A stretch of DNA of 64,000 nt, taken from assembly GCF_900105835.1 (NCBI RefSeq), contig NZ_LT629783.1, positions 4,486,501 through 4,550,500 of the forward strand. The letters run 5' to 3'. The notes under the pieces are model-generated. The model worked only from the letters and a program-made list of their open reading frames with translations, ran no database searches and had not been told where the DNA came from. The DNA comes from Pseudomonas fragi. GTDB lineage: Bacteria; Pseudomonadota; Gammaproteobacteria; Pseudomonadales; Pseudomonadaceae. Of the stretch, positions 3,809 to 51,169 are shown one piece after another; positions within the stretch are counted from its first letter, which is position 1; each line of letters begins with the position of its first letter. Position numbers and translations under genes: made by a program.

Positions 3809-3952
3809 GTAGCAGCTGCCGAAGGAACGAGGCTGCGTTCGGCGGCGAAGCCGTCGTAAAACCTGTGAACTCAATAAATCTGGCACACCGAGTTGCCTGA
3901 TTCACGACGACTGCGTCGCCGAACGCAGCCTCGTTCCTCCGGCAGCTGCTAC
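3809..3952. repeat. REPIN-like long palindrome, family A copy 1
   Basis: A 144-base unit between two convergent genes. It begins GTAGCAGCTGCC and ends GGCAGCTGCTAC. Each arm continues with GAACGAGGCTGCGTTCGG or its complement, around a 50-60 base centre. Four other copies in this window share the arms and parts of the centre (14445, 29891, 37069, 49381). Pairs of inverted REP arms moving as one unit are known as REPINs in Pseudomonas; no RAYT transposase is in the window. Confidence 0.85.
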
Positions 3953-14444: not shown

Positions 14445-14591
14445 GTAGCCGTTGACGAGCTGTGCGAGGCTACGTTCGGCTGCGCAGCAGTCGTAAAACC
14501 ATCCAGCGTTGGTGTTTCTGATACACCATGCCCACCGGCTTTACGACTGCTGCGCAGCCGAACGCAGCCTCGTTCCTTCGGCAGCTGCTAC
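14445..14591. repeat. REPIN-like long palindrome, family A copy 2
   Basis: Same arms as the copy at 3809, though the left arm is diverged (GTAGCCGTTGACGAGCTGTGCGAGG) while the right arm is intact (CCTTCGGCAGCTGCTAC). It lies between two converging genes and may act as a bidirectional stop or buffer. Confidence 0.8.
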
Positions 14592-26774: not shown

Positions 26775-26812
26775 TGATGTCTGGCGTCAGGCAGATCTGG
26801 ATTTGCCTGTCG

Positions 26813-26857
26813 GCGGATTTCCGCTTATTCCTGCGCTGAAAGTCAGCGGATTCCCGC
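26813..26857. promoter_or_regulatory. Paired upstream activator sites of the kgtP-like gene
   Basis: GCGGATTTCCGC at 26813-26824 and GCGGATTCCCGC at 26846-26857, each followed by TTAT, centres 33 bases apart (about three helical turns). The same motif pair occurs before dctA (49555 and 49596). They lie about 50-90 bases upstream of a sigma-54 promoter, so they are probably enhancer sites for a sigma-54 activator. Confidence 0.65.
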
Positions 26858-26899
26858 TTATCCATCTCCCGCAAGCCATGTAAACCGTGGCTTCAAGCG

Positions 26900-26916
26900 T
26901 TGGCACAAGTCCTGCT
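26900..26916 (+). promoter_or_regulatory. Sigma-54 promoter of the kgtP-like gene
   Basis: TTGGCACAAGTCCTGCT matches TGGCAC-N5-YTGCW with the required GG-N10-GC spacing (GG at 26902-26903, GC at 26914-26915). It lies about 65 bases before the start codon and downstream of two enhancer-like palindromes. Confidence 0.8.
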
Positions 26917-26979
26917 ATAGCCCTGCAAGCTCGCGTTTTGACGCGCTATAAAAAAACAAATAAAAGAAGGATCCATTCA

Positions 26980-28302
26980 ATGGATAACTCCAGCACCCTG
27001 CCTGCCGGGGCCGTGTCTGCGGCGCCTAAAGAAAAGACCACCTCCAGCCGCATCAAATCGATTTTCAGTGGTTCCGTCGGCAATATGGTCGAGTGGTACG
27101 ACTGGTACGTTTACGCCGCGTTCTCGCTGTATTTCGCCAAGGCTTTTTTCCCTAAGGGCGACACCACCGCACAACTGCTCAACACCGCTGCGATCTTCGC
27201 CGTGGGCTTTTTGATGCGCCCCATCGGTGGCTGGCTGATGGGCCTGTACGCTGACCGCAAAGGCCGTAAAGCCGCACTGATGGCCTCGGTATTGCTGATG
27301 TGCTTCGGTTCGCTGGTGATCGCGCTATCGCCGGGTTACGAAACCATCGGCGTCTGGGCACCGATCCTGCTGGTCTTCGCCCGCTTGCTGCAAGGCTTGT
27401 CGGTGGGCGGTGAATACGGCACTTCGGCCACTTACCTGAGTGAAATGGCGACCAAGGAACGTCGCGGTTTCTTCTCCAGTTTCCAGTACGTGACCCTGAT
27501 CTCGGGCCAGCTCATCGCCCTGGGCGTGCTGATCGTGCTGCAACAGACCCTGACCGAAGAACAGCTTTACAGCTGGGGCTGGCGCGTGCCGTTCGTGATC
27601 GGCGCCCTGTGTGCCGTGGTCGCGCTGTATCTGCGTCGTGGCATGGAAGAAACCGAGTCGTTCAAAAAGACCAAGGTCAAGCCTAAAGAAAGCGCCATGC
27701 GCACCTTGCTGCGTCATCCCAAGGAGCTGATGACCGTCGTCGGCCTGACTATGGGCGGCACCCTGGCGTTCTACACCTACACCACCTATATGCAGAAGTA
27801 TCTGGTGAACACGGTGGGCATGAGCATCTCGGACTCCACCACCATTTCGGCCGCTACATTGTTCCTGTTCATGTGCATCCAGCCGCTGGTGGGCGGGCTT
27901 TCGGACAAGATCGGCCGTCGTCCGATCCTGATCGCCTTCGGTGTACTGGGGACCCTGTTTACCGTGCCGATCCTCACCACCCTGCACACCATCACCACCT
28001 GGTGGGGCGCGTTCTTCCTGATCATGGCCGCACTGATCATCGTCAGCGGCTACACCTCGATCAACGCCGTGGTCAAAGCGGAACTGTTCCCCACGGAGAT
28101 TCGCGCACTGGGCGTAGGTTTGCCTTACGCACTGACCGTGTCGATTTTTGGTGGTACGGCTGAATATATCGCGCTGTGGTTCAAGAGCGCAGGTATGGAA
28201 ACCGGTTACTACTGGTACGTTACGGCTTGTATTGCCTGCTCGCTGGCGGTGTATGCCACCATGAAAGACACCCGCAAGCACTCGCGCATCGAGACTGACT
28301 GA
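26980..28302 (+). CDS. kgtP: MFS dicarboxylate/alpha-ketoglutarate permease (KgtP-like)
   Basis: Proton symporter of the metabolite:H+ branch of the MFS, 440 residues with about 12 helices. The conserved VEWYDWYVYAAFSLYFAKAF start, the GWLMGLYADRKGRK loop between helices 2 and 3, and VGGEYGTSATYLSEMA are those of the KgtP/PcaT/ShiA group. Its sigma-54 promoter and shared activator sites with dctA favour a C4/C5-dicarboxylate such as alpha-ketoglutarate. I place the start at the ATG 26980 (AGAAGGA upstream); an earlier in-frame ATG at 26887 lies ahead of the promoter and is unlikely. A-rich AAAAACAA before the start could be a Crc/Hfq site. Confidence 0.86.
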   Translation: MDNSSTLPAGAVSAAPKEKTTSSRIKSIFSGSVGNMVEWYDWYVYAAFSLYFAKAFFPKGDTTAQLLNTAAIFAVGFLMRPIGGWLMGLYADRKGRKAALMASVLLMCFGSLVIALSPGYETIGVWAPILLVFARLLQGLSVGGEYGTSATYLSEMATKERRGFFSSFQYVTLISGQLIALGVLIVLQQTLTEEQLYSWGWRVPFVIGALCAVVALYLRRGMEETESFKKTKVKPKESAMRTLLRHPKELMTVVGLTMGGTLAFYTYTTYMQKYLVNTVGMSISDSTTISAATLFLFMCIQPLVGGLSDKIGRRPILIAFGVLGTLFTVPILTTLHTITTWWGAFFLIMAALIIVSGYTSINAVVKAELFPTEIRALGVGLPYALTVSIFGGTAEYIALWFKSAGMETGYYWYVTACIACSLAVYATMKDTRKHSRIETD

Positions 28303-43289: not shown

Positions 43290-43323
43290 CAAATCAAAAG
43301 CCCCTGAATACGCTGAGGGGCTT
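43290..43323 (-). terminator. Terminator of dctD
   Basis: AAGCCCCT-N10-AGGGGCTT at 43298-43323 overlaps the end of dctD on the minus strand and is followed there by TTTTGATTT. On the plus strand the T run is poor, but it may also slow transcription from the efflux gene. Confidence 0.7.
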
Positions 43324-44656
43324 ATTCGGCATTTAAAAACGCTTCACGCACCAGGCCGTGGCGCTGCATTTTTTCATTCAGGGTACGCCGCGGCAGTTGC
43401 AGCTCATGGAGTACGGCCTTGATATCGCCCTTGTGCCGGGTCAGTGCCGCGCGCAGGCATTGCGCCTCAAAGGCTTCCTGTTGTGCCACCAGCGATTGCC
43501 CCACGTCGGTGTCGGGCAGTTGCGGTTCGCCCAACCCCAGTACATCCCGCTCGGCCACGTTGGCCAGTTCGCGCACGTTGCCTGGCCAGGCGTGGCAGAG
43601 CAAGCGCGACAGCTGCGGGCCGCTCAGCACTTGTAGGCTGCGCCCGAGGCGTTCAGCGGCTTGGCGGGAAAAGGCGTCGTACAACAAGGCAATGTCCTCG
43701 CGCCGCTCCCGCAGCGGTGCCAGGCGTAACTCGGCCACAGTCAGGCGATAGGCCAGGTCTTCACGAAAGCGTCCGGCGCGGGCTTCGTCGAGGAGGTCGG
43801 GTTTGGTCGCGGCAACCACCCGCAAATTCACGCTGATGCTCTGGTTGGAACCCAGGCGCTCGAGCTTCTGCTCCTGCAGCACCCGCAGCAATTTGGCTTG
43901 CTGGGCCAGCGGCATGCTTTCGATTTCATCCAGAAACAAGGTGCCACCATCGGCGTATTCCAGCTTGCCGATGCGCTTGCCCTGGGCGCCGGTAAAGGCG
44001 CCGCTTTCGTGGCCAAACAACTCGGCTTCAAACAACTGCTCGGGGATGGCCGAGCAATTGAGGGCGACAAAGGGCTTGTCGGCCCGTGGACCAAAATCAT
44101 GCAGGCAGCGGGCGACCAGTTCCTTGCCGCTGCCGGTCTCGCCGCGAATCAGCACATTGACCGGCAGCGGCGCCAGCTCCAGCACCTGGCGGCGCAAGGT
44201 CTGCAAGCTGCGCGAGACCCCCAGCAGGCGCCCGTCGATCTGCTCACGCAGGTCGGCCTGTTCGTGCAAGCGACGGTTCTCCAGGATCAACTGACGTTTT
44301 TCCAGCGCGCGGCGCAGGCTGCCAAGCAATGCTTCGGGGCTGAAGGGCTTTTCCAAAAAGTCGTAGGCACCTGCGCGCATGGCCTCCACTGCCATCGGCA
44401 CATCGCCGTGGCCGGTCAGCAGGATCACCGGCAAGTCTGCATCCAGTTGCTGCAAGCGGTTGAGCAGGGCCAGACCGCCCATGCCCGGCATGCGCACATC
44501 GCTGACAATCACCCCGGCAAAGTGCGCAGGCAACTGGCCAAGACAGTCTTCGGCGCAGGTGAACAACTGCACGTCAAAGCCGCTCAGGCTCAGCCACTGC
44601 TCCACTGCATTGCGAATACTGGCCTCGTCATCGACCACGATCACCGAATTGAGCAT
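43322..44656 (-). CDS. dctD: DctD-type sigma-54-dependent response regulator
   Basis: NtrC-family regulator of 444 residues: receiver domain with D53 (IVSDVRMPG), AAA+ domain with Walker A GETGSGKE (172-179) and the sigma-54 contact motif GAFTGA (219-224), and a C-terminal Fis-type HTH. It pairs with the membrane kinase directly upstream. DctBD systems control C4-dicarboxylate uptake; the related MifSR pair controls alpha-ketoglutarate uptake. The sigma-54 promoters and shared palindromes before dctA (49 kb) and the kgtP-like gene (27 kb) are likely targets. The start at 44656 lies three bases after the kinase stop. Confidence 0.9.
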   Translation of the reverse strand: MLNSVIVVDDEASIRNAVEQWLSLSGFDVQLFTCAEDCLGQLPAHFAGVIVSDVRMPGMGGLALLNRLQQLDADLPVILLTGHGDVPMAVEAMRAGAYDFLEKPFSPEALLGSLRRALEKRQLILENRRLHEQADLREQIDGRLLGVSRSLQTLRRQVLELAPLPVNVLIRGETGSGKELVARCLHDFGPRADKPFVALNCSAIPEQLFEAELFGHESGAFTGAQGKRIGKLEYADGGTLFLDEIESMPLAQQAKLLRVLQEQKLERLGSNQSISVNLRVVAATKPDLLDEARAGRFREDLAYRLTVAELRLAPLRERREDIALLYDAFSRQAAERLGRSLQVLSGPQLSRLLCHAWPGNVRELANVAERDVLGLGEPQLPDTDVGQSLVAQQEAFEAQCLRAALTRHKGDIKAVLHELQLPRRTLNEKMQRHGLVREAFLNAE

Positions 44657-44659
44657 GTT

Positions 44660-46453
44660 TCAAGATTCCTGTGCGATGGGCAGCGTCAGCGTGAATTGCG
44701 CACCATCCGCGTGGTTGCAAGCAGTCAGGCGACCGCCGATTTCGTGAACAATGGCGTAAGACACCGCCAGCCCCAAGCCCAATCCGTCGCCCACGGGCTT
44801 GGTGGTGAAGAACGGGTCGAAGATTTTACCCAAGTGCTGCTCGTCAATCCCGCCGCCGCTGTCGGTCACGGTCAGGCACCACAGTTGCTGGTCGGCTTCG
44901 ATGCGGATCTCAAGGTGCTTGCGCGGTTTGTCGCGCATGGCGTCCAGGGCATTGCGCAGCAGGTTGATCAGCACCTGCTCCAGGCGGATGGCATCGCCGC
45001 GTACCCAGGCCGGGCGTTGCAGGTTGACCTGCAGGTCGATCTGCTCGTCCTTCAGACGCGGCTCCAGCAGTTGCAAGGCTTGATCCACCACAGTGGCCAG
45101 ATCCAGCTTTTCGCGCAGGCCGCTGGGGCTTTGCCTGGCGTAGGTTTTCAGGTGGCCGGTGAGGGCCGCCATGCGCGTAAGCATCTGCTCCAGGGGCGCC
45201 AGGGCTTTATAAGCATCGTCGATGCGGCCGTGGTCGAGCAACAGGCGCAAGGTCGCCAGTTGCATGCGCTGGGCGGTAAGGGGCTGGTTGATTTCGTGGG
45301 CCAGCGCCGCCGACATTTGCCCCAGTGCCGCGAGTTTCGCTGATTGCACCAGGCCATCTTGGGCGGTTCGCAAGTCCCGGGTACGGGCTTCGACCAGTTG
45401 TTCAAGTTCTTCACGATTACGCTGGCGCAAACGTGCCAGGCGCCAACGCTGAAGTAAAAACAGGCCCAGAAAAACCACGGTCAGCCACAGACCTGCCCCC
45501 GCCAGGGCTGCATTGCGGATGTCTTCTGCGACGTTTGCCGGGCGCCGCAACAGGTGCAGGGTCCAGCCTTCGGGGCTCAGTGGCAGAGAGCCCCACAAAT
45601 AATCCGCCGGCCCGTCCGGGCCCTCGACGCGGGTCAGTGAGCTGTTTTCAGCGAAGCTGCGCAAGGTGTGGGTGTTCATCAAGGTCAGCGGTTGATTGTG
45701 GTATTGGCGGGTAACGCTGATTTCGTTGCGGTCGCTGTCATCCAGCGGCCGCAACAGGCGATAGCGCCAGCCGGGCTGATTGGCAATAAACACGATGCCC
45801 CGCGCATCGCTGACCAGCAGGATATCGTTGCCGTGGCTCCATTCGCGTTCAAGCTGGGGGAACTCGAGTTTGACCACCATCGCCCCGAGGAAGCGGCCGT
45901 CCGCATCGAGCACAGCGCTGGACAGAAAATACCCCGGGATGCCACTGGTCACGCCCACCGCGTAAAAGCTGCCGCTGCCCTGGCTGCGGGTCTGGCTGAA
46001 GTAGGGCCTGAAGCCGTAGTTGTGGCCCACATAGCTGTTGGAGGTGTTCCAGTTGCTGGCGGCCACTGCCAGCCCGCTGCTGTCGAGCAGTTCCAGGGTC
46101 GAGGACTGCGCCGCGCCGTTGATGCGTTCCAGTTTGCGGTTGAGGGCGGCCTGTACCTCGGGCGTGACCGGGTTGCTCAGGGCGTTGACCAGTTCGGCGT
46201 CCAGCGCCAGCACGGCCGGTAGGGCGCGATAGCGCTCGATCAGGGTGTGCAGTGAGTTGGCATACAGGCTCAGTTGCTCTGGCCCGCGTCTGGCGCTTTC
46301 TTCCAGGGCATGGCGCTCGGCCTGACGCATCGCCCAGCCGCCAGCCAGAGCCGCGCCGGCCAGGATCAACAGGCAATACAGCGCCATACGCAGGGCGCGA
46401 GATGTCACAGGCATGCTGGCAAACCGCTCAAACAGGGGGGCGAACGATAGCAT
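44660..46453 (-). CDS. dctB: DctB-type dicarboxylate sensor kinase
   Basis: Membrane histidine kinase of 597 residues: helix about 18-40, a periplasmic double-Cache sensor (about 45-320, with the DctB-like [10 protein letters not shown] segment), second helix about 322-345, coiled-coil linker, H box [19 protein letters not shown], and an ATPase domain with [12 protein letters not shown]. It senses dicarboxylates in related proteins and phosphorylates DctD. An internal ATG 39 bases later (MPVTSRAL) is an alternative start. Substrate specificity (succinate versus alpha-ketoglutarate) is unsettled. Confidence 0.9.
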
Positions 46454-47345: not shown

Positions 47346-48023
47346 ATGAAATTGCTGGTGGTTGAAGATGAGGCGTTGCTGCGCCATCACTTGCAAACCC
47401 GTCTGACAGAAAGTGGCCATGTGGTCGAAGCGGTGGCCAATGCCGAAGAGGCGTTGTACCAGACCGAGCAGTTCAACCATGACCTGGCGATGATTGACCT
47501 GGGCCTGCCGGGGCTTGGCGGCCTGGAACTGATTCGCCAGTTGCGCGCCCGGGGCAAGACGTTTCCGATCCTGATCCTCACTGCGCGTGGCAATTGGCAG
47601 GACAAGGTCGAAGGGCTGGCAGCGGGTGCGGACGATTATGTGGTCAAGCCGTTCCAGTTCGAAGAACTGGATGCGCGGCTCAATGCGTTGCTGCGCCGCT
47701 CCAGTGGCTTTACCCAACCGACGATAGTGGCCGGTGCGCTGGTGCTGGACATCAACCGCAAACAGGCGGTGCTCGACGGTGAGCCGCTGGCGCTGACCGC
47801 CTATGAATACCGGATTCTTGAATACCTGATGCGCCATCACCAGCAAGTGGTGGCCAAGGACCGACTGATGGAACAGCTGTACCCGGATGACGAGGAACGT
47901 GATCCGAATGTGATCGAGGTGCTGGTCGGGCGCCTGCGACGCAAGCTGGAGGGGGCAAACGGTTTTAAGCCAATCGATACAGTGCGCGGCCTGGGGTACT
48001 TGTTTACTGAGCGCTGCCGATGA
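47346..48023 (+). CDS. phoP: PhoP response regulator (OmpR family)
   Basis: Regulator of 225 residues: receiver domain with phospho-acceptor D51 (MIDLGLPG) and conserved Lys in DDYVVKPFQFEE, and a winged helix ending TVRGLGYLFTERCR. The sequence agrees with P. aeruginosa PhoP over nearly its whole length as I remember it. PhoPQ controls Mg2+ starvation responses, LPS modification and resistance to cationic peptides. GGGAGA precedes the ATG at 47346. It overlaps phoQ by four bases. Confidence 0.95.
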   Translation: MKLLVVEDEALLRHHLQTRLTESGHVVEAVANAEEALYQTEQFNHDLAMIDLGLPGLGGLELIRQLRARGKTFPILILTARGNWQDKVEGLAAGADDYVVKPFQFEELDARLNALLRRSSGFTQPTIVAGALVLDINRKQAVLDGEPLALTAYEYRILEYLMRHHQQVVAKDRLMEQLYPDDEERDPNVIEVLVGRLRRKLEGANGFKPIDTVRGLGYLFTERCR

Positions 48024-49366
48024 TTCGTTCGCTTCGCGTTCGATTGATGCTGGCGGCAACCCTGTTGGCCGTGTTGTTTATGCTGGCGTTGCTGCCGGCG
48101 ATGCAGGGAGCGTTCAGTCTGGCGCTCAAGGACGCCATCGAGCAGCGCCTGGCGTCAGATGTCACCACGCTGATTTCAGCGGCAAAGATGGAAAAGAACC
48201 GGCTCAAGATGCCGGCGCTGCTGCCTGATGAGCAGTTCGACCTGCCGGACAGTCGCCTGCTGGGCTACATCTATGACCGTGACGGGCAACTGGTGTGGCG
48301 CTCACGCGCCACCCAGGAAGAAACCATCAACTACAAGCCGCGCTATGACGGGCGCGGCAACGAATTTGCGAGCATTCGCGAGGCCAACGGCGAAGAGTTC
48401 TTTGTCTACGACGTGGAGGTCAAGCTGCTAGGCGGCAAAAGTGCGGCCTTCAGCTTTGTCGCCCTGCAACCGATGCGCGAATACAACCGCACGCTGGAAG
48501 GCCTGCGGGAAAATCTTTATCTGGGGTTCGGCGCAGCTTTGATTGTGCTGCTGGCATTGCTATGGATTGGTCTGACGTGGGGGTTACGCGCCTTGCGACG
48601 TTTGAGTCAGGAACTGGATGAAATCGAAACGGGCACTCGCCAGAGCCTCAGCGAGCAACACCCGCGCGAGCTGCTGCGCCTGACCGGCTCGTTGAACCGC
48701 TTGCTGCAAAGCGAGCGCGAGCAGCGCACGCGCTATCGTGATTCCCTCGACGACCTGGCCCATAGCCTGAAAACCCCGCTGGCGGTGTTGCAGGGGGTAA
48801 GCGAAAGCATGGCCCAGCGCCCGGCCGACCGTGAACAGGCCTGGGTGCTGCAAAGTCAGATCGAGCGCATGAACCAGCAGATCGGCTATCAGTTGCAGCG
48901 TGCCAGCTTGCGCAAGAGCGGCCTGGTGCGTCATCAGGTCGAAGTGCTGCCCGTGGTACAGAGTCTGTGCAACACGCTGGACAAGGTGTACCGCGACAAG
49001 GGCGTCAAGGTCAGCTACGACATCCCGGAACTGAGCCATCTGCCGATCGAGCAAAATGCCTTGCTGGAGTTGCTCGGCAACCTGTTGGAAAACGCCTATC
49101 GGCTGTGCCTGAGCCAGGTACGCATCAGCCTGCACCGCAATGCCCACGGCATAGAAGTCTGCGTGGAGGACGACGGCCCGGGCGTGCCGCCGGATCAGCG
49201 TGCGCGCATCTTGCAGCGCGGCGAGCGCCTCGACCGCCAGCATCCGGGGCAGGGCATAGGCCTGGCGGTGGTCAAGGACATCATTGAAAGTTATGACGCC
49301 ACCTTGACCCTGGACGACTCGTCATTGGGCGGGGCGGCCTTCAGGATTCATTTCCCGGCGGGGTGA
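48020..49366 (+). CDS. phoQ: PhoQ sensor histidine kinase
   Basis: Membrane kinase of 448 residues: helix about 7-30, an acidic periplasmic sensor domain (about 35-160), second helix about 165-187, H box DSLDDLAHSLKTPLAVL, N box NLLENAYRLC, and GQGIGLAVVKDI in the ATPase domain. PhoQ responds to low Mg2+ and envelope stress. It overlaps phoP by the ATGA junction, so the two are translationally coupled. A REPIN-like repeat directly follows and may mark the end of the operon. Confidence 0.95.
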   Translation: MIRSLRVRLMLAATLLAVLFMLALLPAMQGAFSLALKDAIEQRLASDVTTLISAAKMEKNRLKMPALLPDEQFDLPDSRLLGYIYDRDGQLVWRSRATQEETINYKPRYDGRGNEFASIREANGEEFFVYDVEVKLLGGKSAAFSFVALQPMREYNRTLEGLRENLYLGFGAALIVLLALLWIGLTWGLRALRRLSQELDEIETGTRQSLSEQHPRELLRLTGSLNRLLQSEREQRTRYRDSLDDLAHSLKTPLAVLQGVSESMAQRPADREQAWVLQSQIERMNQQIGYQLQRASLRKSGLVRHQVEVLPVVQSLCNTLDKVYRDKGVKVSYDIPELSHLPIEQNALLELLGNLLENAYRLCLSQVRISLHRNAHGIEVCVEDDGPGVPPDQRARILQRGERLDRQHPGQGIGLAVVKDIIESYDATLTLDDSSLGGAAFRIHFPAG

Positions 49367-49380
49367 GCGATGCCCCCCCT

Positions 49381-49526
49381 GTAGCAGCTGACGAGCGGAG
49401 CGAGGCTGCGTTCGGCGGCGCAGCCGTCGTAAACCTGAGTCCCGGGTTTTCCTGACACAACCATGTACCTGACTTCACGACGGCTGCGCCGCCGAACGCA
49501 GCCTCGCTCCGCTCGTCAGCTGCTAC
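49381..49526. repeat. REPIN-like long palindrome, family A copy 5
   Basis: Begins GTAGCAGCTGACGAGCGGAG and ends CTCGTCAGCTGCTAC. Compared with the other copies both arms carry the same paired change (GACGAGCGGAGCGAGG in place of GCCGAAGGAACGAGG), so the hairpin is kept. It lies between phoQ and the dctA control region. Confidence 0.85.
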
Positions 49527-49553
49527 AGGTATATGGGGGTACGGTGGCGTTTA

Positions 49554-49608
49554 GGCGGATATCCGCCACCTCCTGCACTTCAACACGCCTAATGGGCGGA
49601 TTCCCGCC
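49554..49608. promoter_or_regulatory. Paired upstream activator sites of dctA
   Basis: GGCGGATATCCGCC (49554-49567, a perfect palindrome) and GGCGGATTCCCGCC (49595-49608), centres 41 bases apart, about four helical turns. They share GCGGAT-NY-CCGC with the two sites before the kgtP-like gene. They lie 81-136 bases upstream of the sigma-54 promoter. Confidence 0.7.
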
Positions 49609-49687
49609 AAGGGCTGTCCTGCAAAAACAATACGTAAAGTCCTACAAGTTCAGGCGCTACGGGCCATTGCGCAGCTTTAACGCAATG

Positions 49688-49703
49688 TGGCCCACGGCTT
49701 GCA
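49688..49703 (+). promoter_or_regulatory. Sigma-54 promoter of dctA
   Basis: TGGCCCACGGCTTGCA matches TGGCAC-N5-TTGCA with the required GG-N10-GC spacing (GG at 49689-49690, GC at 49701-49702), 132 bases before the dctA start. Its activator is probably the DctD-type regulator nearby. Confidence 0.82.
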
Positions 49704-49834
49704 ATAAGTGCGAGAGGTCTGCCGTAAGAGCAGCCCCAAAAACAAATCCCTCCAAGTACAGGAGGGTTCGCGCTTTAGGTGTCACCAGTCTCAGACGGAA
49801 TGATGATTGAGTGATGCACTTGAGGAACTTTGCA

Positions 49835-51169
49835 ATGACGACTCGTCAGCCACTGTACAAATCCCTGTATGTGCAAGTAATCGTAGCGATCGCTATCGGT
49901 ATCTTGCTGGGCCATTACTACCCGGAAACCGGTGTCGCTCTCAAGCCGCTGGGTGATGGCTTTATCAAACTGATCAAGATGGTCATCGCGCCCATTATTT
50001 TCTGTACGGTGGTCAGCGGTATTGCCGGCATGCAGAGCATGAAATCGGTCGGCAAGACCGGCGGTTATGCCTTGCTCTACTTCGAAGTCGTGTCGACTAT
50101 CGCGCTGTTGATCGGCCTGATCGTGGTTAACGTGGTTCAGCCTGGCGCTGGCATGCATATTGACGTGTCGACCCTGGATGCCAGCAAAATTGCCGGTTAC
50201 GTGTCGGCAGGCGCAGACCAGAGCATCGTAGGCTTTATCCTCAATGTAATCCCGTCGACCATTGTTGGCGCCTTCGCCAATGGCGATATCCTGCAAGTGC
50301 TGATGTTCTCGGTGATCTTCGGTTTCGCCCTGCATCGCCTGGGTGCCTACGGCAAGCCGGTACTGGACTTCATCGACCGTTTCGCCCATGTGATGTTCAA
50401 CATCATCAACATGATCATGAAGCTGGCGCCACTCGGTGCGCTGGGTGCGATGGCCTTCACCATCGGCGCTTACGGCGTAGGCTCGCTGGTGCAGCTGGGT
50501 CAGTTGATGATCTGCTTCTACATCACTTGCGTGCTGTTCGTGCTGATCGTGCTGGGCGGTATTGCCCGCGCTCACGGTTTCAGCGTGTTGAAGCTGATCC
50601 GCTACATTCGTGAAGAGCTGCTGATCGTACTGGGTACGTCCTCGTCGGAATCGGCGCTGCCACGCATGCTGGTGAAAATGGAGCGCCTGGGCGCGAAGAA
50701 ATCGGTAGTGGGCCTGGTGATCCCGACCGGTTACTCGTTCAACCTCGACGGTACTTCGATCTACCTGACCATGGCCGCCGTGTTTATCGCCCAGGCGACT
50801 GACACCCATATGGACATCACCCATCAGATCACCCTGTTGCTGGTGCTGTTGCTGTCGTCCAAAGGTGCTGCGGGCGTAACCGGTAGCGGCTTTATCGTGC
50901 TGGCGGCCACCCTGTCGGCTGTAGGCCACTTGCCGGTAGCTGGTCTGGCGCTGATCCTGGGTATCGACCGCTTCATGTCTGAAGCCCGTGCCCTGACCAA
51001 CCTGATCGGTAACGCCGTGGCAACCCTGGTGGTGGCCAAGTGGGTTAAAGAGCTGGACACCGACACCCTGCAGACCGAGCTGAACTCCGGCGGTCGCCCG
51101 CTGGAAGATACCCGCCCGCAAGATGACCTGGGCGTGGCTGAAGGCCCGGCCCCGGTGCTGCTCAAGTAA
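49835..51169 (+). CDS. dctA: C4-dicarboxylate:H+/Na+ symporter DctA
   Basis: Inner-membrane transporter of the DAACS family, 444 residues. It has the helical-hairpin signature [32 protein letters not shown] (substrate/Na site) and [17 protein letters not shown], all DctA-typical. It takes up succinate, fumarate and malate. I place the start at the ATG 49835 after TTGAGGAAC; an in-frame ATG at 49811 is less suitable. A long leader runs from the sigma-54 promoter and contains AAAAACAA, a possible Crc/Hfq motif. It ends with a strong bidirectional terminator shared with the sprT-like gene. Confidence 0.96.

Follow-up and report, generated by a model that had tools for sequence, protein, structure and literature searches.

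Activators of sigma-54 promoters, once phosphorylated, assemble on paired sites and remodel the closed polymerase complex by DNA looping. In rhizobia, the DctD site TGTGCGgnnntCCGCACA, which has the same core as the sites analyzed here, is described in multiple copies upstream of dctA (PMC11077940, citing Ledebur and Nixon 1992 and Scholl and Nixon 1996 for the tandem enhancer). In Pseudomonas aeruginosa, the use of C4-dicarboxylates is reported to depend on DctD and that of C5-dicarboxylates on MifR (PMC7962211), and mifSR mutants retain growth on succinate, fumarate and malate (PMC4482717). The latter work reported in the promoter P-PA5530 the motif GATCGGCGGATTTCC, the left part of a kgtP-type site as defined below; in the accessible passages of that paper, the palindrome is neither described as a DctD-type site nor compared with dctA. 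A third regulator, AauR, has sites TTCGG-N4-CCGAA upstream of aatJ, known from work on P. putida (PMC7962211). P. fluorescens SBW25 also has genes named dctD, mifR and aauR (PMC10482368).

Results

Tandem palindromes and a sigma-54 promoter ahead of dctA

We analyzed a window of 64,000 nucleotides of the P. fragi genome. The region upstream of dctA contains the following features:

49554..49567, + strand: predicted distal DctD-type enhancer site GGCGGATATCCGCC; palindrome position, pair spacing kept in 77/79 named dctA upstream regions
49595..49608, + strand: predicted proximal DctD-type enhancer site GGCGGATTCCCGCC; conserved, distance to the distal site 41 bp
49688..49703, + strand: sigma-54 (-24/-12) promoter element TGGCCCACGGCTTGCA; TGGCCC-N5-TTGCA, GG-N10-GC
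49835..51169, + strand: dctA, C4-dicarboxylate symporter; NCBIfam DctA 727 bits (cut-off 513), Pfam SDF

The initial annotation had described two palindromes spaced 41 bp apart and a promoter with GG-N10-GC spacing ahead of dctA, and all of these positions and distances proved correct. The centres of the palindromes are 41 bp apart, and 79 bp separate the end of the proximal one from TGGCCC-N5-TTGCA. What is expected of a DctD-dependent sigma-54 promoter, namely tandem palindromes with the core GCGG-N4-CCGC and a -24/-12 element, is therefore found ahead of dctA. As in the rhizobial enhancer, at least two such palindromes lie upstream of dctA and the activator belongs to a DctB/DctD family. 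Unlike in rhizobia, the edges are GGCGG..CCGCCA instead of TGTGCGG..CCGCACA, dctBD is located far from dctA, and kgtP and aatJ have sister sites. Because the full rhizobial consensus TGTGCGG-N4-CCGCACA does not occur at dctA (G..C-A, not TGT..ACA), we filed the pair as the Pseudomonas form of the DctD site.

The core GCGGAT-NY-CCGC is common to the dctA sites and to a second pair ahead of kgtP, where the matches start at 26813 and 26846, also as first annotated:

26812..26825, + strand: predicted distal kgtP site of the MifR type, TC-GGCGGATTTCCGC-TTA; pattern search and edge model
26845..26858, + strand: predicted proximal kgtP site of the MifR type, TC-AGCGGATTCCCGC-TTA; 33 bp from the distal site, pattern search and edge model
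26901..26916, + strand: kgtP sigma-54 promoter element TGGCACAAGTCCTGCT; sigma-54 pattern
26980..28302, + strand: kgtP, alpha-ketoglutarate-type MFS permease; NCBIfam PRK10406 571 bits (cut-off 550)

This pair (26812-26858) with its sigma-54 promoter resembles the MifSR/PA5530 (kgtP) system of P. aeruginosa (PMC4482717). Matches to kgtP, 88-93% identical, were found in 47 of 58 other genomes.

The window has 4 places that match the pattern GCGGATNYCCGC, against 0.18 expected (5 rows, one palindrome being matched on both strands), and none of 100 shuffles of the window reached 5 rows. The whole genome of 5.07 Mb contains 12 places, among which the dctA and kgtP pairs are the only close pairs; the backward control gave 0. 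Matches to the sigma-54 pattern by itself, 3 in the window against 1.9 expected, did not exceed chance. A site and a promoter in the right arrangement were found once in the window (0.00 expected from shuffles), and the dctA-type arrangement occurs once genome-wide, at dctA. Single sites were rejected as evidence: GGCGGNNNNCCGCCA gave 15 genome matches (13 places) against 11 in the backward control, and GCGGNNNNCCGCTNA gave 26 against 22. Since these counts are close to the control, only the pair together with the promoter is informative.

Other elements were observed in the same region. Between the dctA enhancer and the gene of a phoQ-like kinase (48020-49366), a long near-perfect inverted repeat occupies positions 49380-49527. 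It resembles a repetitive extragenic element, and arms related to it are present at 3817/3904, with 8 mismatches of 41, and at 14454, with 5. The six matches of an Rfam search over 49300-49900 all fell below the threshold; five were to the inverted repeat. Between promoter and start, the A-rich stretches 49738-49749 (dctA) and 26950-26969 (kgtP) resemble Crc/Hfq targets; tight Crc/Hfq control of P. aeruginosa dctA is mentioned in PMC8871633.

Conservation of the dctA pair

Comparison across Pseudomonas dctA upstream regions, suggested in the initial annotation as a check, found the pair strongly conserved. Among 80 named dctA loci, 79 were usable (L056, with 39 bp of upstream DNA, was dropped); 77 of them have a pair of perfect-core sites with a spacing of exactly 41 bp, and the remaining 2 have one site. 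All 156 sites have G before the core and CA after it, and a sigma-54 element is present in 79/79. By DctA, P. bubulae (100% identity) is the nearest of the named relatives. As the dctA promoters share descent, such site counts are to be read as non-independent events.

In a genus sample, perfect-core sites were found in 52 of 55 dctA upstream regions (100 sites) and in 42 of 48 kgtP upstream regions (48 sites). The six kgtP upstream regions outside this set have one-mismatch sites (G001, G030, G031, G045) or only two-mismatch sites near the promoter (G043, G056). Where two perfect sites were counted, the dctA spacing was 41 bp in 45 genomes and 42 bp in one (46/55 upstream regions, a count that leaves out G020 with its third, spurious site), and the kgtP spacing was 32-33 bp (6 genomes). 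In the 46 anchored upstream regions, the mean frequency of the top base reached 0.92 and 0.91 in the two dctA sites versus 0.45-0.57 around them, and the conservation of the sites does not extend to the DNA upstream of the distal one. Over 59 genomes of the genus, the dctA-type site and promoter pattern gave 57 matches, 48 of them at dctA as assigned by coordinates, with 2 in the backward control; the nine others include one in G012, some 130 bp ahead of a dctP paralogue. The kgtP-type pattern gave 37 matches (25 at kgtP, 2 at TAXI genes and 10 elsewhere), with 9 in the control.

Two site classes distinguished by their edges

The sites of both promoters have the family core GCGG-N4-CCGC, and their edges differ consistently: GGCGG-N4-CCGCCA at dctA versus TNRGCGG-N4-CCGCTNA at kgtP. 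Of the 100 perfect-core dctA sites, 96 have G/C as the outer pair and 99 have A at +13. At the 48 kgtP sites the outer pair is A/T in 33, G/T in 12 and A/C in 3, the distal site of P. fragi having a G left edge. The right edge is T at 45/48 kgtP sites and C at 99/100 dctA sites. Scoring by the edge letters alone, with one genome left out at a time, separated 99/99 dctA sites from 48/48 kgtP sites, one spurious C/A-edged G020 site having been removed beforehand (from 100 to 99 sites); the scores nearest to zero were 9.0 bits for dctA and 7.6 bits for kgtP.

With their own genome left out, the two dctA sites of the window favoured the dctA class by log-likelihood ratios of +15.2 and +10.4 bits; read in the reverse direction, they scored +5.4 and -0.5 bits, the negative value belonging to the proximal site. 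The MifR-class edges (TNR..TNA), which membership of dctA in the MifR regulon would predict, were not found at the dctA sites. The rhizobial DctD consensus, with its T/A edges, fell on the kgtP side of the two-class model, so the edge preference is not fixed for everything called DctD.

Three sister regulators

A sigma-54 activator and its kinase are encoded in the window:

43322..44656, - strand: mifR, sigma-54 activator (receiver, AAA+, Fis-type HTH); domain search, orthologue near kgtP elsewhere
44660..46453, - strand: mifS, sensor histidine kinase; adjoins mifR, dCache match below Pfam's cut-off

This activator had been annotated as the only one of its kind in the window, which is correct; across the genome (5.07 Mb, one contig), the sigma-54 activator domain is matched 24 times, strongly in 19 cases. 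In P. fragi, mifR is 15 kb from kgtP and 5 kb from dctA. Of the 48 kgtP-bearing genomes, 43 have the mifR orthologue (a 67% relative in the case of G001) no more than 1.5 kb from kgtP, and we therefore identified the product of 43322-44656 as MifR. Two sisters, 51-52% identical over nearly the full length, were found in the genome, and none other was near in score. The first, at C1:3008628-3010016, has a kinase gene directly upstream, as in a DctB/DctD pair, and lies near genes that we take to be cysQ and nudE. Because its orthologues adjoin dctP TRAP genes in six sample genomes, we assigned it as DctD. The dctD gene is about 1.5 Mb from the MifR/dctA region of the window, and DctD orthologues (at least 78% identity) are present in 58/59 genomes. 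The second sister, at C1:4368k, adjoins an ABC transporter, presumably of the acidic-amino-acid type, preceded by AauR-type sites, and for these two reasons was assigned as AauR. Upstream of aatJ, P. fragi has TTCGGTTTTCCGAA, an imperfect second copy 32 bp further on and then a sigma-54 element. AauR sites share the CGG-N4-CCG centre and the paired arrangement with the dctA and kgtP sites; they differ in having T instead of G next to CGG, and AauR has another recognition helix.

The recognition helices are near-invariant within DctD or MifR and different between them: LG[IV]PRKTLHDKLRKH was found in 30/30 DctD loci and LQLPRRT[FL]NEK[ML]QRH in 30/30 MifR loci. These counts come from a loose P-loop pattern, a narrow one having missed 29/30 DctD loci. 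In the one AauR examined, the helix differs from those of both sisters.

The same edges at dctP and TAXI-TRAP genes

A family-type site precedes a sigma-54 element in 7 of 28 dctP loci, with dctA-type edges in 7/7 and a perfect core in 5/7, and dctP adjoins dctBD in 6 of these seven. The corresponding arrangement was found in 5 of 19 TAXI loci, with kgtP-type edges in 5/5 and a perfect core in 4/5; all five TAXI genes adjoin a MifR-like activator that shares 65-66% identity with MifR, and the MifR recognition helix was recovered in four of the five (the four from which the helix was extracted). No family-type site before a sigma-54 element was detected in the other 21/28 dctP and 14/19 TAXI loci. 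The dctP survey left out L368 and L369 (32% and 31% identity), and weak sigma-54-like matches at dctP of G046 and G030 were taken as chance, G030 having a one-mismatch site 181 bp before. Applied to this outside material (8 dctP and 5 TAXI sites), the edge model placed 8/8 dctP sites with dctA and 5/5 TAXI sites with kgtP, one of them weakly. Outside the scored set are further candidates with one mismatch each: a second site, dctA-like, in each of G008, G014 and G042; three more dctP sites in G001, of which one (TAAGCGGATTCCTGCCGA) has kgtP-like edges; and another TAXI site, also in G001. For G027, the permease site next to MifR was assigned to neither class.

The dctP homologue of P. fragi itself (C1:363082-364065; L361/L401), considered as a second DctD target, was rejected: it has no sigma-54/enhancer arrangement. 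This homologue, which shares 75% identity with the protein of G012, is probably regulated otherwise.

In the loci L283-L287, which have a MifR-like activator beside TAXI-TRAP genes, a KgtP orthologue was not found in 4/5 genomes, which suggests that the transporter was replaced under the same regulatory code. The kgtP upstream regions (e.g. L124, L137, L139) also contain a block, approximately CCCyTCTAAACCGGsCC, some 10-30 bp ahead of the -24 element, which in the kgtP consensus lies between the MifR-type site and -24. A similar block precedes two TAXI genes, and it is degenerate in the P. fragi genome.

Genomes lacking MifR or the Pseudomonas DctD

The MifR orthologue is absent from 5/59 genomes (best match at most 54%), four of which have dctA. 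If dctA depended on MifR, its sites might be lost there; all four keep a pair of dctA-type sites with at most 1 mismatch per site, spaced by 22 bp in three and by 41 bp in one. These pairs are weaker, 2/8 sites being perfect-core and one of the 8 being near zero in the orientation-averaged score, and they were chosen from longer lists according to their position and mismatches (in G028, two more sites have one mismatch). The spacings of 22, 32-33 and 41 bp come to about two, three and four turns of the helix, as would suit sites on one face of the DNA. G027, without the Pseudomonas DctD, has a 63% identical DctA near a different activator with the helix LGIPRKTFYDKLARHG (L400, G027:C6:235500-241600), and its dctA is preceded by imperfect sites with TGTGCGG-like edges, as in the rhizobial sites. 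This single link between another DctD-like activator and rhizobial-like edges is suggestive only.

Discussion

The palindromes very probably form the tandem DctD enhancer of the sigma-54 promoter of dctA, the kgtP pair being read separately by MifR. We infer the action of DctD at dctA from the class of the sites, the presence of DctD and the published P. aeruginosa genetics. Phosphorylated DctD would dock on both dctA sites, on the same side of the helix and about four turns apart, and would loop to the sigma-54 RNA polymerase at 49688-49703, turning on dctA in response to succinate, fumarate or malate. The pair of kgtP would be read by the sister regulator MifR. The regulators would share the centre CGG-N4-CCG and be told apart by the outer bases, GGCGG..CCGCCA for DctD, TNRGCGG..CCGCTNA for MifR and TTCGG..CCGAA for AauR.

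DctD might be the main activator and the common core might still let MifR act on dctA, or DctD on kgtP, at physiological levels. The cores are identical, the G left edge seen at a quarter of the kgtP sites (12/48) includes the distal site of P. fragi, which could serve as a bridge, and two paralogous response regulators of Desulfovibrio are reported to have identical sites and overlapping targets (PMC3333781). However, the split of the right edge into T at kgtP and C at dctA held across the genus sample, and we would not expect it to persist if sharing were useful or harmless. Such cross-regulation appears rather improbable to us.

The initial annotation had proposed that one DctD/MifR-type activator, encoded 5 kb from dctA, serves both promoters through one motif and so ties C4 to C5 uptake. 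The sigma-54 enhancer, the DctD-family activator and the kinship of the sites with those of kgtP are supported; the assignment of the neighbouring activator to both promoters is not, for this activator is MifR, a separate DctD is encoded and the edges differ. The shared GCGGAT-NY-CCGC core and the proximity of mifR to dctA speak for a single activator. Against it, the class edges track the two regulators at other genes, dctA-type sites persist in genomes without MifR, and P. aeruginosa can use C4 acids even when mifSR is mutated (PMC4482717). We give this proposal very little credence. Least credible is that the palindromes serve another regulator, such as a repressor, or are chance or REP-derived sequence: the large inverted repeat at about 49380-49527 lies just upstream, but it is unrelated to the sites, does not overlap them and falls in a stretch unconserved across 46 genomes, while the fixed spacing, the conservation and the sigma-54 linkage match the known DctD type.

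An ordinary DctD enhancer at dctA is thus well supported, and a single C4/C5 switch is unlikely. Beyond this assignment, we somewhat favour the view that three sisters in one cell, DctD, MifR and AauR, use the same centre and the same paired layout and are kept apart only by 1-3 bp beside the centre, read by the helix residues HDKLRK, NEKMQR and FDKVKK, respectively. The code would travel with the regulator and not with the transporter, and in some Pseudomonas the MifR-like protein probably governs the adjacent TAXI-TRAP genes that have the kgtP site type. We found no description of such an edge code in the open-access literature searched, a scope outside which most subscription papers fall.

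The case of dctA corrects the plausible inference that the nearest activator is the regulator. The edge rule can be used in Pseudomonas for telling likely DctD targets from likely MifR targets. An edge code may keep the three sister regulators apart, and with three paralogues, three edge codes and one core, they offer a natural test set for the insulation of duplicated sigma-54 activators.
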